Assembly: GCF_006539125.1 (NCBI RefSeq) | Contig: NZ_BJMK01000001.1 | Coordinates: 372,001-436,000 of the forward strand | Direction: 5' to 3' | From: Gluconobacter sphaericus NBRC 12467 | Lineage (GTDB): Bacteria > Pseudomonadota > Alphaproteobacteria > Acetobacterales > Acetobacteraceae | Length of the DNA stretch: 64,000 nt | Shown: positions 45,166-50,282 of the stretch, in pieces | Layout of the letters: each line of letters opens with the position of its first letter | Position numbering within the stretch: the first letter of the stretch is position 1 | Notes under the pieces: generated by a model | The model's input: only the letters and a program-made list of their open reading frames with translations | Told to the model about the DNA's origin: nothing | Databases searched by the model: none | Program-made: the position numbers and the translations under genes

Positions 45166-45936
45166 ATGGCTTTCAATACCAACTTCAGCAGGGCCGGTGT
45201 GCAGGCCGGAGCCGGCAGTCTCGATGCCGGGCTTCGTGCTTATATGTGCCGGGTCTTCAACTGGATGGCGCTTGGTCTGGTGATCACGGGAGTGGTCGCT
45301 TACGGCGTCGCACAGACATCCCTGCGCTCTCTCTTCTTCCATCTGGCAGAAATGCCGAATGGTGCCATCGTTCTGCGTCCGACCCTTCTGGGTGGGATCA
45401 GCATCTTTGCTCCTCTTGTGTTCGTGATGGTTCTGTCCTTCGGGGTCAACCGTCTGTCGCGGTCGGCCGTACAGGGGATTTTCCTGTTGTTCAGCGCGGC
45501 GATGGGTGCGAGCATGGCCAGTCTTCTGCTGAGCTATACCGGCGTTTCCGTGGCCCGTACCTTCTTCGTGACGGCTATTACGTTCGCCGGAATGTCGCTG
45601 TGGGGATACACGACCGGCGCCAATCTCGCTCGACTCGGTTCTTTCCTGTTTATGGGGCTGATTGGGATCCTTCTGGCATCCGTGGTGAACATTTTCCTCC
45701 ACAGTTCGCCGCTTGCCATGCTGGTTTCCATAATAGGTGTGGGGCTTTTCACCCTACTGGCGGCGTATGACACGCAGCGCATCAAGATCACGTATCAGCA
45801 GTACATGGCCTATGCTGGTGCAGATGATGTTGCGAAGCTGAGTGTCTATGATGCGCTGACAATGTATCTCAATTTCGTGAACCTGTTTCAGTTTCTGATC
45901 CAGTTCATGGGGGTTCGCTCAGGTAACAGCGATTGA
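45166..45936 (+). CDS. Bax inhibitor-1 / YccA family membrane protein
   Basis: 257 residues starting MAFNTNFSR, with AAAGG five bases upstream. Seven hydrophobic segments; 'LRAYMCRVFNWMALGLVITGVVAYG' opens the BI-1 domain and 'LLAAYDTQRIKITYQQ' near the C-terminus carries the conserved Asp region. The family forms pH-sensitive channels in the inner membrane and in E. coli YccA affects FtsH. Monocistronic, with its own terminator. Confidence 0.92.
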   Translation: MAFNTNFSRAGVQAGAGSLDAGLRAYMCRVFNWMALGLVITGVVAYGVAQTSLRSLFFHLAEMPNGAIVLRPTLLGGISIFAPLVFVMVLSFGVNRLSRSAVQGIFLLFSAAMGASMASLLLSYTGVSVARTFFVTAITFAGMSLWGYTTGANLARLGSFLFMGLIGILLASVVNIFLHSSPLAMLVSIIGVGLFTLLAAYDTQRIKITYQQYMAYAGADDVAKLSVYDALTMYLNFVNLFQFLIQFMGVRSGNSD

Positions 45937-45965
45937 GATTACTCTCTTAGCGATACTGGAGATCC

Positions 45966-46005
45966 AGAAAGGGGCGGCAGTTGATGCCGCCCCTTTCTGC
46001 TTTTT
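45966..46005 (+). terminator. Rho-independent terminator of the BI-1 gene
   Basis: A perfect 14-bp stem (AGAAAGGGGCGGCA with TGCCGCCCCTTTCT) around a GTTGA loop, then GC and five T. Confidence 0.92.
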
Positions 46006-46048
46006 GGACCAAAAAAGTCTTGAATTATTTCCACGAATTCTAAAGCAG

Positions 46049-46077
46049 TTCACATTAAAAATCTGTAATTTTATGAC
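46049..46077 (+). promoter_or_regulatory. Probable promoter of cyoABCD
   Basis: TTCACA (5/6 match to the -35 consensus) and TATGAC (4/6 to the -10) are spaced by exactly 17 bases in the AT-rich block before the operon. Transcription would start near 46084, giving a leader of about 300 nt. A CATTAA/TTAATG inverted repeat (46053-46058 and 46078-46083) straddles the spacer and could be an operator. Confidence 0.55.
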
Positions 46078-46129
46078 TTAATGAAACCCTTAATTAGATC
46101 AAATGTGGCGAAAAACAGCCATTTCACTC

Positions 46130-46186
46130 TGAGCCCTATGTCGGGGAAGGGCTCACGAAATCCGTGATAAGCCTTGTCTTTGAGGC
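46130..46186 (+). other. Two upstream hairpins in the cyo leader
   Basis: Hairpin A pairs TGAGCCCT (46130-46137) with AGGGCTCA (46148-46155). Hairpin B pairs GCCTTG (46171-46176) with TGAGGC (46181-46186), including two G-T pairs, around a TCTT loop. Both precede the branched structure in the same leader. Confidence 0.5.
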
Positions 46187-46203
46187 GATTCAGGCGGAAA
46201 AAA

Positions 46204-46281
46204 CCTGAGGAACCGGGACAGCCGTGTCCCATGCTGAATGAATTTCAGGGTCGGATCTTTGATCCGGTTCCTGACGTCAGG
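46204..46281 (+). ncRNA. Candidate structured RNA element (four-way junction) in the cyoABCD leader
   Basis: Drawn by eye. The closing stem pairs CCTGAGGAACC (46204-46214) with GGTTCC (46266-46271) and, past a TGACG bulge, TCAGG (46277-46281). Inside are three hairpins. GGGACA/TGTCCC (46215-46230) stacks directly on the stem. CTGAA/TTCAG spans 46234-46248. GGATC/GATCC (46253-46265) stacks directly on the other side. All stems are Watson-Crick. It resembles a cloverleaf but has no tRNA T-loop. It lies 26 bp upstream of the leader ORF and 103 bp before cyoA. Confidence 0.55.
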
Positions 46282-46306
46282 ATACGAACGAGAAAGGTAG
46301 CAGACT

Positions 46307-46387
46307 ATGGCAGCGTTCGGCGGCACTGATGCGGACCTTATCGTGTCAAACCGTTTCCCGGCGACTACTGCAAGCCGGAACGGATGA
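46307..46387 (+). CDS. 26-codon leader ORF overlapping the cyoA start
   Basis: An ATG with AAAGG about nine bases upstream opens a 26-codon frame beginning MAAFGGTDADLIV. Its TGA overlaps the first ATG of cyoA (ATGA). The peptide is not a signal sequence or a run of one amino acid. It may be a coupling or attenuation device; whether the peptide itself matters is unknown. Confidence 0.45.
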   Translation: MAAFGGTDADLIVSNRFPATTASRNG

Positions 46388-47322
46388 TGAAAGCAGGACC
46401 GATGAAAAAACTCTGGCGATATCTCCCAGCGTTGCCGGCGCTGATGCTATCGGGTTGTACGGTTGATCTGCTTCAGCCGCGCGGCCCGGTCGCAGAAATG
46501 AACCGCGATGTCATGGTGGCGGAATTCGTCATCATGATGCTGGTCGTGGTTCCCACCTGCGCCGCGACGCTTTATTTTGCGTGGAAGTATCGTGCTTCCA
46601 ACAAAGAGGCCGAATACCTCCCGACTTGGGATCATTCGACCGTAATTGAATATGTCATCTGGGGCGTCCCTGCCATCCTGATCGCTCTTCTGGGCGCCAT
46701 CAGCTGGTGGAGTACGCATGCTTATGACCCGTACCGCCCGCTTCAGACGGCTGACAACGTCAAGCCCCTGAATGTCCAGGTGGTTTCTCTCGACTGGAAA
46801 TGGCTGTTCATCTATCCGGACCTGGGGATCGCAACGATCAACCAGCTGGATGTTCCCACGAACACGCCGCTGAATTTCCAGATCACCTCTGACACCGTCA
46901 TGACGTCGTTCTTCATCCCGCGTCTGGGATCGATGATCTACTCCATGCCTGGTCAACAGACCCAGCTGCATCTGCTTGCAAGTGAATCCGGGGATTATCT
47001 CGGTGAGGCTTCACAGTTCAGTGGTCGTGGTTTCTCGGATATGAAGTTCCGTACCCTCGCCATGGATCCGGCTCAGTTCAACGACTGGGTTGAGAAAGTG
47101 AAGAGCGGAAGCGAAAATCTCGACGATACCACCTACCCGAAATATGCTGCACCGCAGGAATCTGCGCCGGTACAGTATTTCGCGCATGTCCAGCCGGATC
47201 TCTTCGACGGCATCGTTGCCAAGTATAACAACGGCATGATGGTGGACAAGAAGACGGGCAAGGTCATGCACATGCAGTCTGCTTCCAACGCTGCACCGTC
47301 CGACACTGGCATGAAGGAATAA
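46384..47322 (+). CDS. cyoA: Cytochrome o ubiquinol oxidase subunit II
   Basis: 312 residues from the first ATG; the ATG at 46402 (306 aa) starts the lipoprotein signal more neatly ('[19 protein letters not shown]', lipobox LSGC). Two transmembrane helices precede a periplasmic cupredoxin domain ('[23 protein letters not shown]', '[22 protein letters not shown]') that lacks the CuA cysteines, as expected for a quinol oxidase. Part of the terminal oxidase that reduces oxygen with ubiquinol and pumps protons. First of four genes behind a structured leader. Confidence 0.97.
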
Positions 47323-47329
47323 CCGACAG

Positions 47330-49318
47330 ATGCTCGGAAAACTCTCCTTATCAGCCATACCGTTGGATGTGCCGATTCTTGTCGGTACATTCATTGGTGT
47401 TGCTGTTATCGGTCTCGCCGTACTGGGTGCCGTCACCTATTATGGCAAATGGGGCTATCTCTGGCGTGAATGGCTGACGACAGTCGACCACAAGCGTCTT
47501 GCCGTAATGTACGTCATTCTGGCGATCGTCATGCTGTTCCGCGGTTTCGCGGACGCTATCATGATGCGTACCCAGCTTGCTCTGGCTTACAAGGGTAACC
47601 CGGGTTACCTTCCGCCGCACCACTACGATCAGATCTTCTCCGCTCATGGCACCATCATGATCTTCTTCATGGCGATGGCGTTCATGACGGGCCTGATGAA
47701 CCTGGTGGTTCCCCTTCAGATCGGTGCGCGCGACGTTGCGTTCCCGTTCCTGAACTCGCTCAGCTTCTATATGACGCTGGTCGGAGCCCTGCTGATCAAC
47801 ATCTCGCTGTTTATCGGTGAGTTCGCTCAGTGCGGCTGGCTGGTTTACCCGCCTCTGTCCGAGATGCAGTTCAGCCCGGGTGTCGGCGTTGACTACTATA
47901 TCTGGGCCGTTCAGATCTCCGGTGTCGGTACGCTGCTGACGGGCGTGAACTTCTTCACGACCATCGTCAAGATGCGTGCGCCTGGCATGGGCTGGATGCA
48001 GATGCCGGTCTTCACCTGGACTGCGTTCTGCACGACCGTTCTGATCATGGTGTCCTTCCCGGTTCTGACAGTGACGCTGGCTCTGCTCAGCCTTGACCGT
48101 TACCTCGGCATGCACTTCTTCACGAACGATGCCGGCGGCAACGTCATGCTTTACCTCAGCATGATCTGGACCTGGGGCCATCCGGAAGTTTACATCCTTG
48201 TCATTCCGGCATTCGGTGTTTTCTCCGAGGTCACTGCAACGTTCTCCCAAAAGCCGCTCTTCGGCTACAAGACGATGGTGTACGCCACGTGCTCCATCAT
48301 GGTGCTCTCCTTTGTCGTGTGGGTGCATCACTTCTTCACCATGGGTGCTGGTGCTAACGTCAATACCTTCTTCGGTATCATGACGATGATCATCGCCGTC
48401 CCGACGGGTGTGAAGATCTACAACTGGCTGTTCACGATGTATAAGGGTCGCGTGGAATTCACGGCTCCGATGTACTGGACGATCGGTTTCATGATCACCT
48501 TCTCCATCGGTGGTATGACTGGTGTCATGATGGCCATGCCAGCCGCTGACTGGATCCTGCATAACTCCCTGTTCCTGATTGCCCACTTCCACAACGTCAT
48601 CATTGGCGGTGTGTACTTCGGCTACATTGCAGGCATGGGTTTCTGGTTCCCGAAGGCTTTCGGCTTCAAACTGAACGAAGCCTGGGGCAAGCGCGCGTTC
48701 TGGTGCTGGTTCATCGGCTTCTATCTGGCCTTCGTTCCGCTCTATATCCTCGGCCTCGAGGGCATGACGCGTCGTATGAACCACTACGACAATCCTGACT
48801 GGTATCCGTGGATGCTGGTTGCTGAAGCCGGTGCGATCGTTATCGCTTGCGGTATCGCCTGCCAGCTGACGCAGCTCTATGTGTCCATCCGCGACCGTAA
48901 CCTGCCTGAGAATCTTGATCTGACGGGTGATCCGTGGAACGGCCGTACGCTGGAGTGGGCTATTTCTTCTCCGCCGCCGGCTTATAACTTCGCGGTCATT
49001 CCCGACATTCACGGTCTCGACACGTTCCACACCGAGAAGCAGCTGGGTCTGAAGGCTCACGGCAAGCCGCTGGCGCCGATCCACATGCCGAAGAACACCT
49101 CCGCTGGTGTCTTTATCGGTCTGTTCGCGTTCCTGTTCGGCTTCGCTTCGATCTGGTACATCTGGTGGCTTGCCGCCATTTCCCTGATCGGTATCGTTGC
49201 AACCATGATCCTGCGCAGCGCCAATCGTGACGTCGACTATTACGTTCCGGTAAGCGAAATCGAGCACAACGAGGAAGTTTATTCTCGTCGTATCGCTGCG
49301 GCTCAGGCAGCAGAGTAA
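47330..49318 (+). CDS. cyoB: Cytochrome o ubiquinol oxidase subunit I
   Basis: 662 residues, about 15 transmembrane helices. Heme-copper ligands visible: '[11 protein letters not shown]' (low-spin heme His), '[13 protein letters not shown]' (CuB His cross-linked to Tyr), '[10 protein letters not shown]' (two CuB His) and '[12 protein letters not shown]' (high- and low-spin heme His). It is the catalytic core of the bo3-type quinol oxidase. Seven bases after cyoA. Confidence 0.99.
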
Positions 49319-49335
49319 GAGGGGGCATAAGACTT

Positions 49336-49953
49336 ATGGCTCACGAAGCAACAATGTCGCCTCTGGCACACGCTGACGATCATCACGGGGAACACCACGA
49401 GACCCCCAACGTGTTCGGCTTCTGGCTCTACCTGATGACGGACTGCATCCTGTTCGGGTCGATCTTCGCTGCCTTTGCGGTTCTCCGGAATCAGTTTGCC
49501 GGTGGTCCGTCGGGTAAGGAGCTCTTCGATCTGACGAATGTGGGGATCGAGACGGCTATTCTGCTGTTCTCGTCCATCACGTACGGCTTCGCCTCGCTGA
49601 ATGCGATGGCGAAGAACAAGACGATGGTTCTTCTGTGGCTGGCCGTCACTTTCGTTCTGGGCGCATCCTTCGTCGGTCTGGAGCTGAACGAGTTCAGCTC
49701 CATGATCGCAGAAGGCAACGGTCCTGACCGTTCGGCATTCCTCTCCGCGTTCTTCACGCTGGTTGGAACGCATGGTCTGCACGTCACCTGCGGTCTGATC
49801 TGGATGCTCGTCCTGATGGTGCAGATGATGGGTCCGCAGGATCTGTCCGAGCGTATGATGAACAAGCTGACCTGCCTCAGCCTGTTCTGGCACTTCCTTG
49901 ACATCGTCTGGATCTGTGTCTTCTCGTTCGTCTATCTCGCAGGAGTGATGTAA
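49336..49953 (+). CDS. cyoC: Cytochrome o ubiquinol oxidase subunit III
   Basis: 205 residues, five hydrophobic helices, subunit III fold: 'FGFWLYLMTDCILFGSIFAAFAVL', 'GSKELFDLT'-like block, 'FVGTHGLHVTCGLIW'-type motif near residue 150 ('LVGTHGLHVTCGLIWM') and 'FWHFLDIVWICVFSFVYL' at the end. Ends at TAATG, sharing one base with the cyoD start. Confidence 0.97.
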   Translation: MAHEATMSPLAHADDHHGEHHETPNVFGFWLYLMTDCILFGSIFAAFAVLRNQFAGGPSGKELFDLTNVGIETAILLFSSITYGFASLNAMAKNKTMVLLWLAVTFVLGASFVGLELNEFSSMIAEGNGPDRSAFLSAFFTLVGTHGLHVTCGLIWMLVLMVQMMGPQDLSERMMNKLTCLSLFWHFLDIVWICVFSFVYLAGVM

Positions 49954-50282
49954 TGGCTCAGGCACATACAGCCCACGATGGTAGCCACGGCTCCTATTCG
50001 GCTTATCTGATCGGCTTCGTTCTGGCCGTGATCCTGACGGTGGCATCTTTTGCCGCCGTCATGACCCACGCCCTGTCTCCGGGAATGGCGCTGGCCGCAC
50101 TGACGGTTCTTGCCGTTGTGCAGATCGTCGTTCACCTGGTGTTCTTCCTTCACATGAACACCAGCAGCGAGCAGAGCTGGAACCTGATGTGCTTCATCTT
50201 TGCTGCGGCATCGGTGATTGTCATTATTGGTGGTACGATCTTCATCATGCATGACACTGCGATCAACATGATGTCCCGCTAA
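49953..50282 (+). CDS. cyoD: Cytochrome o ubiquinol oxidase subunit IV
   Basis: 109 residues, three helices: 'YLIGFVLAVILTVASFAAVM', 'ALAALTVLAVVQIVVHLVFFLHM' and 'MCFIFAAASVIVIIGGTIFIMH', the standard CyoD plan. Starts inside the cyoC stop (TAATG). Assembly subunit of the oxidase. No cyoE follows; a terminator does. Confidence 0.96.
   Translation: MAQAHTAHDGSHGSYSAYLIGFVLAVILTVASFAAVMTHALSPGMALAALTVLAVVQIVVHLVFFLHMNTSSEQSWNLMCFIFAAASVIVIIGGTIFIMHDTAINMMSR

Follow-up and report, generated by a model that had tools for sequence, protein, structure and literature searches.

The locus lies in a stretch of 64,000 nucleotides, referred to throughout as the window, in which a Bax1-I family gene and a terminator at 45965-45999 (Pfam; terminator scan) precede the cyoABCD operon (Table 1). 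CyoA is 91-92% identical to its counterparts in the Gluconobacter species records L035-L037 and L039, and a CyoA match is present in all 26 genomes of the window genus. A second CyoA-like gene, of 40% identity, was seen in two of these genomes (G212 and G209; loci L033 and L034). The start of cyoA is most likely ATG 46402, because the 16 leaders from Bombella, Saccharibacter and genus g61 carry no ATG at the place of 46384. Protein regulators are usually regarded as the means by which terminal oxidase operons are controlled.

Table 1. Features of the cyo leader and operon: feature, window positions, strand, and basis or remark.
CTTGT block (46173-46177) and ATTCAGGCGGAA block (46188-46199)	46173..46199	+	leader alignments
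Small inverted repeat TCACG-N5-CGTGA (RNA hairpin or protein site)	46153..46167	+	near 5' end of conserved leader
P1 (GGAACC 46209-46214 / GGTTCC 46266-46271) enclosing P2 (GGGACA/TGTCCC, 46215-46230), P3 (CTGAA/TTCAG, 46234-46248) and P4 (GGATC/GATCC, 46253-46265)	46209..46271	+	sequence inspection; fold z; conservation
P5-like pairing CGTCAG 46275-46280 / CTGATG 46326-46331	46275..46331	+	rivals the outer closing pairs first proposed
P6, CGAACG 46285-46290 / CGTTCG 46314-46319	46285..46319	+	predicted hairpin, alignment
Small upstream ORF, 26 codons	46307..46387	+	ORF in 42/42 leaders; frame test
P8, CCGTT 46351-46355 / AACGG 46379-46383 and CCGGC 46358-46362 / GCCGG 46374-46378	46351..46383	+	3' half of small ORF
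cyoA ribosome-binding site AGGA and most likely start ATG 46402	46395..46404	+	GCAGGA and ATG in 22/22 rows of alignment A4
cyoABCD operon	46402..50282	+	Pfam COX2/COX_ARM, COX1, COX3, COX4_pro

Conservation of the leader and its DNA-level features

Conservation was counted over 21 Gluconobacter loci (L007-L027), the other five loci of the genus (L028-L032) being omitted as more distant. Invariant positions amount to 38 of 50 in 46154-46203, 66 of 78 in the cloverleaf (46204-46281), 23 of 25 in 46282-46306, 65 of 81 in the small ORF and 13 of 14 in 46388-46401. These leader blocks are 76-93% invariant, as compared with 36% for the fourfold sites of cyoA (45/124, counted only where the first two codon bases are invariant) and 8% for the adjacent spacer (2/26, 46128-46153); the block 46046-46127 has 45 of 82 positions invariant, and cyoA from 46402 has 652 of 918. 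The leader is conserved more strongly than the silent sites of cyoA and, judged by these counts, is under strong purifying selection, far above neutral.

A good promoter had been placed at 46049-46077 in an earlier note on this DNA, and this is not borne out: a sigma-70 scan of 45900-46500 found no promoter-like site (0, against an average of 0.4 in shuffles), and inspection of the alignment shows no conservation of the proposed -10. Only one intrinsic terminator was found in 45900-46500 of the window, the one at 45965-45999 that precedes the leader; the leader itself has none. Upstream of cyo, each of the 26 genus loci has the palindrome GGACYAAAAARGTC or something close to it, with a TTGAATTATTT-like sequence after it; in the window it lies at 46006-46019 and looks like a protein operator. 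The exact form GACYAAAAWRGTC occurs once in the genome, at these positions, and matches with one mismatch are no commoner than in the control. Between the promoter block and the variable spacer sits an imperfect inverted repeat, AAATGTGGC-N8-GCCATTT (46101-46124), present in most genus loci. The arms of the TCACG-N5-CGTGA repeat are invariant and its loop is variable in L007-L027, and the repeat is absent from L028-L032. The CTTGT block is common to all 42 homologous leaders described below, and the ATTCAGGCGGAA block is shared with Saccharibacter and in part with Bombella.

It is conceivable that the leader is conserved at the DNA level, for operators or for a promoter near CTTGT 46173, with the folds as by-products, since the inverted repeats at 46006-46019, 46101-46124 and 46153-46167 resemble protein sites and CTTGTNWT could be a candidate -10 element. 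We regard this as very improbable, given that the high conservation continues through the ribosome-binding site and the ORF to cyoA, that stems are more constant than loops, and that the pairings from P1' to P8 covary in related genera.

The cloverleaf and the larger element around it

The earlier note had described a cloverleaf-like RNA fold at 46204-46281. Its three hairpins and inner closing stem, all Watson-Crick, are evident from the sequence. The closing stem is upheld for GGAACC/GGTTCC, but not for the outer pairs CCTGA 46204-46208 / TCAGG 46277-46281, two or three of the five being lost in L021, L027 and L029 (3 of 13 distinct rows). The minimum-energy fold of a longer leader (L007) also lacks these outer pairs; there the cloverleaf is closed by AGGAACC/GGUUCCU, and the bases beyond enter the hairpin bearing the small-ORF start. 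An alternative partner for TCAGG, CTGAT 46326-46330, lies inside the small ORF. The four-way junction that P1 closes does not vary among the 12 Gluconobacter rows of alignment A1. The one diverged row, L029, was rejected as support for P1, as it keeps only three of the six P1 pairs on the alignment.

When folded in isolation, the 78 nt of 46204-46281 are predicted to form these stems and the outer pairs at -34.8 kcal/mol; shuffled sequences average -23.68 +/- 3.38 (z -3.29), and 2 in 200 of them fold as well. The 321-nt leader 46080-46400 gives a z of -2.53 (3 of 100 as good). For all 19 leaders tested, out of 31 distinct ones, the minimum energy falls under the shuffle mean, with z from -0.51 to -4.45. 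Twelve cloverleaf positions are variable, of which eight are unpaired, two belong to the disputed outer pairs and two to P4, in whose loop L027 has one extra base inserted. Variation affects 2 of 44 positions in the core stems (22 pairs) as compared with 8 of 24 unpaired positions (Fisher p 0.003, uncorrected for relatedness); the stems are therefore better conserved than their neighbours, a comparison that had been put forward as a test of the fold. When P2 arms were swapped (15 distinct arms, hand-chosen), cognate arms formed a mean of 6.40 pairs and non-cognate arms 5.38.

ARAGORN detected no tRNA or tmRNA gene in the 64000 bases. At the gathering threshold, Rfam 15 gave 0 matches in the window and 0 in 12 loci with homologous leaders, and the element is not assigned to any Rfam family; a permissive Rfam search of 45900-46500 returned 17 matches, all far below the gathering score and none overlapping 46204-46281.

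The hairpins themselves stand, but the element extends further than first described: the cloverleaf makes up just its 5' half, the whole reaches the cyoA start, and the small ORF directly before cyoA had been overlooked. The part shared across genera lies 3' of the cloverleaf and consists of P6, P8 and the small ORF with its stop 11-18 nt before cyoA. Both the likely ribosome-binding site of the small ORF (GAAAGG, 46292-46297) and its ATG lie in the loop of P6. In 22 distinct rows, drawn from four genera, 97.0% of P6 cells are paired, with two-sided change in one pair. For the P5-like pairing, 97.4% of A1 cells are paired, and its counterpart GUCAGGAU/AUCCUGAC is paired in 100% of cells in 14 Bombella/Saccharibacter/g61 rows, no two-sided change being seen in either. 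Homologous P8 pairs show two-sided changes at two of eight pairs in the 14-row set and at four of five in the 22-row set.

Distribution, covariation and the small upstream ORF

A BLAST search with the leader matched only five of 200 family genomes, its own included, and CyoA-anchored searches were therefore used. These yielded 42 loci with homologous leaders in four genera: 26 in the window genus (L007-L027, L029 and four Neokomagataea-type loci, L028 and L030-L032), 11/11 in the Bombella genus, 3/3 in the Saccharibacter genus and 2/2 in genus g61. A DNA pattern that has one extra letter, and misses the window itself, was found in 12 of 397 genomes, its five exact matches all falling in g61 and g101; the genomes that it did not match therefore tell little. 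Leaders of a different appearance were seen in Asaia, Acetobacter, Komagataeibacter, Gluconacetobacter and elsewhere, in a comparison that covered loci from 30 out of 47 family genomes matching CyoA at E <= 1e-100.

R1, a covariance model for the 3' part of the element (P6-P8, small ORF and cyoA start, 22 distinct rows), matched 20 of 328 sampled family genomes at E <= 0.05, once each, always at the cyoA start and only in the four genera; under strict filters it had no match in the sampled window-genus genomes G054 and G131. At E <= 1 nothing was found in 26 other loci, namely 24 cyoA loci of other genera and the second CyoA-like genes at L033 and L034. Applied to 29 sources, R1 matched the window, gave weak scores of 18.5-23.7 bits for the four Neokomagataea-type loci and hit one chance-level place in L080 (E 4.3). 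The strong matches arise partly by construction, because R1 was built from the same clades; the new information is the single copy and the absence elsewhere.

Covariation was assessed on a 14-row Bombella/Saccharibacter/g61 alignment with the structure P1' (GGCAC/GUGUC), P5, P6, P7 and P8, in which 94.0% of cells are paired. The covariation score was 0.205 compared with 0.143 +/- 0.010 for shuffles (0/500 as high) and 0.033-0.095 when slid, and 14 cells with two-sided changes were counted compared with 4.6 in shuffles (0/500). Five pairs have two-sided changes (28/500 shuffles as high), and further pair types are no different from shuffles (236/500); the two-sided changes are confined to P6, P7 and P8, with none in P1' or P5. 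An alignment of 22 rows from all four genera, Neokomagataea-type loci omitted, covers P6, P7 and P8 and is 87.0% paired, with seven pairs showing two-sided changes and a score of 0.238 against 0.157 in shuffles (0/500); sliding by +3 gave an equal score (0.239), but with 55.8% instead of 87.0% paired. Support from the Gluconobacter alignment with L029, where the cloverleaf is near-invariant, is thin: with the outer pairs included the score is 0.043 against 0.031 (0/500), resting on four two-sided cells that by inspection all fall in L029, one of these belonging to the outer pairs under dispute; when the P5-like pairing replaces the outer pairs, the score is 0.038 against 0.034, which 32 of 500 shuffles reach. 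Covariation supports the Bombella/Saccharibacter/g61 structure, but gives little for the Gluconobacter cloverleaf.

The topology differs by clade. The Gluconobacter closing helix takes in no more than P2-P4, while in Bombella, going by the predicted fold of L139, P2-P5 would all lie within P1'; the two g61 rows have no P1'. The leader might instead be a riboswitch for a ligand or ion, or a protein-binding RNA, with the cloverleaf as aptamer and ribosome access to the small ORF and cyoA as output. The multi-helix junction is highly conserved in Gluconobacter, but its core is not common to the four genera, where by inspection the P2-P4 sequences differ and the closing helix switches partner. TCAGG at 46277-46281 has two possible partners, CCTGA 46204-46208 and CTGAT 46326-46330; the UCCUG found within the small ORF of related genera likewise has two, UCAGGA and the cyoA CAGGA. 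Against this, 3 of 13 rows do not keep the outer pairing, and pairing with the cyoA CAGGA has no covariation beyond shuffles (373/500 as high). Together with the lack of an Rfam match, this makes a riboswitch distinctly unlikely.

The small ORF starts 92-98 nt before the cyoA start in each of the 42 leaders, and in all of them a conserved ORF with a ribosome-binding site ends near the main start. The gap between its stop and cyoA is 11 or 14 nt in 41 leaders (14 nt in the window, from TGA 46385-46387) and 18 nt in one, L142 of the Bombella genus, where the frame is changed near the end, within the 93 nt upstream of cyoA. Its frame is stop-free in 24 of 25 distinct leaders (related rows), the other two frames containing stops in 16 and 14. 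The peptide has no Pfam match, and its sequence is unrelated in the four Neokomagataea-type loci, where the start is GTG. The peptide changes freely in Gluconobacter (pN/pS 1.47, 7 distinct) and more slowly in Bombella (0.63, 8 distinct). It is without clear selection, and coding could therefore be incidental; we read the selection as one for RNA structure, for an open frame and for where the stop lies, not for the peptide.

The ORF might then be a passenger in a structured leader whose fold sets mRNA stability or basal cyoA initiation. We consider this unlikely: 24 of 25 distinct leaders lack a stop in its frame, as against 11 and 9 for the other frames, and length and stop position are near-constant across four genera, even though non-synonymous changes in Gluconobacter are at least as frequent as synonymous ones and cluster in the P8 loop (46365-46373). 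The frame change in L142 would also suit a passenger, but the ORF still stops 18 nt before cyoA there.

ORFs of other kinds precede cyoA elsewhere in the family. Asaia and related loci, and genus g47 (L115-L122, L125, L127, L134, L040 and L041), have a different ORF of 37-40 codons that starts at -109 to -113 and overlaps the cyoA start, in L127 as part of a longer one; ORFs in the cyoA leader may thus be more widespread in the family. An ORF ending in MSEPRGVR overlaps the cyoA start in the Acetobacter loci L045, L051, L059 and L080, and no leader ORF was found in three Komagataeibacter-type loci (L048-L050).

Possible control of quinol oxidase synthesis

The proposal that the cyo leader contains a cis-acting structured RNA is supported by the selection on the leader, the constancy of stems over loops, the covariation in related genera and the lack of an Rfam match, and the small ORF immediately ahead of cyoA suggests that translational coupling is what does the work. 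We suggest, with a probability of roughly 0.55, that the leader governs initiation at the small ORF and thereby quinol oxidase output, cyoA being translated by coupling. Positions 46154-46401 would be part of the cyoABCD 5' leader RNA, which would fold into hairpins ending in P6, presenting the start region of the small ORF. Ribosomes would load on the small ORF, melt P6-P8, stop 14 nt before the cyoA start and re-initiate on cyoA, and the upstream hairpins would tune or gate the loading; these hairpins may serve to present the start of the ORF, to protect the RNA or to respond to some signal. A stop-to-start distance of this kind suits termination-reinitiation. What we observe is that the leader is conserved, that its predicted structure shows covariation, that the ORF is retained, and where the element lies; that the leader is transcribed, that the ORF is translated, that cyoA is coupled to it and that a signal may regulate them are inferences. 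The cyoA ribosome-binding site has a predicted opening cost of 2.3 kcal/mol in the window, a modest value, and cyoA is therefore not predicted to be shut without translation of the small ORF. Across 20 leaders the predicted opening energies do not in general point to a strong off-state: 18 lie at 1.0-4.3 kcal/mol, and two, from Saccharibacter, at about 10.

A lineage-specific regulatory RNA with a decoy ribosome-binding site is a further idea, which we hold to be rather improbable. The UCCUG of the small ORF in Bombella, Saccharibacter and g61 would pair either with UCAGGA just before the ORF (P5) or with the CAGGA of cyoA. The small ORF of the window has no UCCUG; one occurs at 46269-46273, in the closing arm of the cloverleaf, and could play the same part. 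Were this the case, quinol oxidase synthesis would be decided by ribosome traffic over the small ORF, or by the upstream hairpins reading a respiratory signal.

Under translational coupling, our preferred reading, the closest likeness is to the odc1 (uORF-25-1) motif of alphaproteobacteria, which in the survey's account is a structured leader followed by a short uORF near the main ORF, with suspected control of the translation initiation site (PMC8632094). By analogy, the cyo leader would work like such an odc1-type structured leader with uORF. It is set apart by the description of odc1, in which the gene is odc1 and the peptide has 11 residues, is highly conserved and is constant in length (PMC8632094), whereas the cyo ORF has 26 codons and a weakly conserved peptide and stands before cyoA. 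As reported for the copper-responsive uORF CruR, an upstream ORF can act on the genes behind it, but CruR itself belongs to the DUF2946 proteins and carries CXXC and RAPP motifs (PMC9426467), neither of which occurs in the cyo peptide. The Corynebacterium ilvB motif, outlined as an amino-acid uORF attenuator, likewise has a uORF and hairpins upstream of an operon (PMC11109978); unlike attenuators of this type, the cyo leader is without an intrinsic terminator in the window, and its peptide has no run of a single regulatory amino acid.

The main texts of two structured-RNA surveys (PMC8632094; PMC11109978) do not contain 'Gluconobacter' or 'cyo'. In an RNA-seq paper on G. oxydans, the main text of which has no 'cyo', 'GOX191' or 'ubiquinol', the seven Rfam-predicted elements presented include none at cyo, and energy metabolism is given among six categories over-represented for genes with 100-300 nt leaders (PMC5756330). 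In the open-licence literature, no title or abstract was found that describes a leader RNA or uORF for cyo in acetic acid bacteria. From its sequence, the cyo leader looks like an undescribed control element for oxidase synthesis. Expression plasmids are on record for G. oxydans, and the idea is therefore directly testable. If it is true, a post-transcriptional layer would be added to the control of a main respiratory oxidase of the industrially used Gluconobacter.
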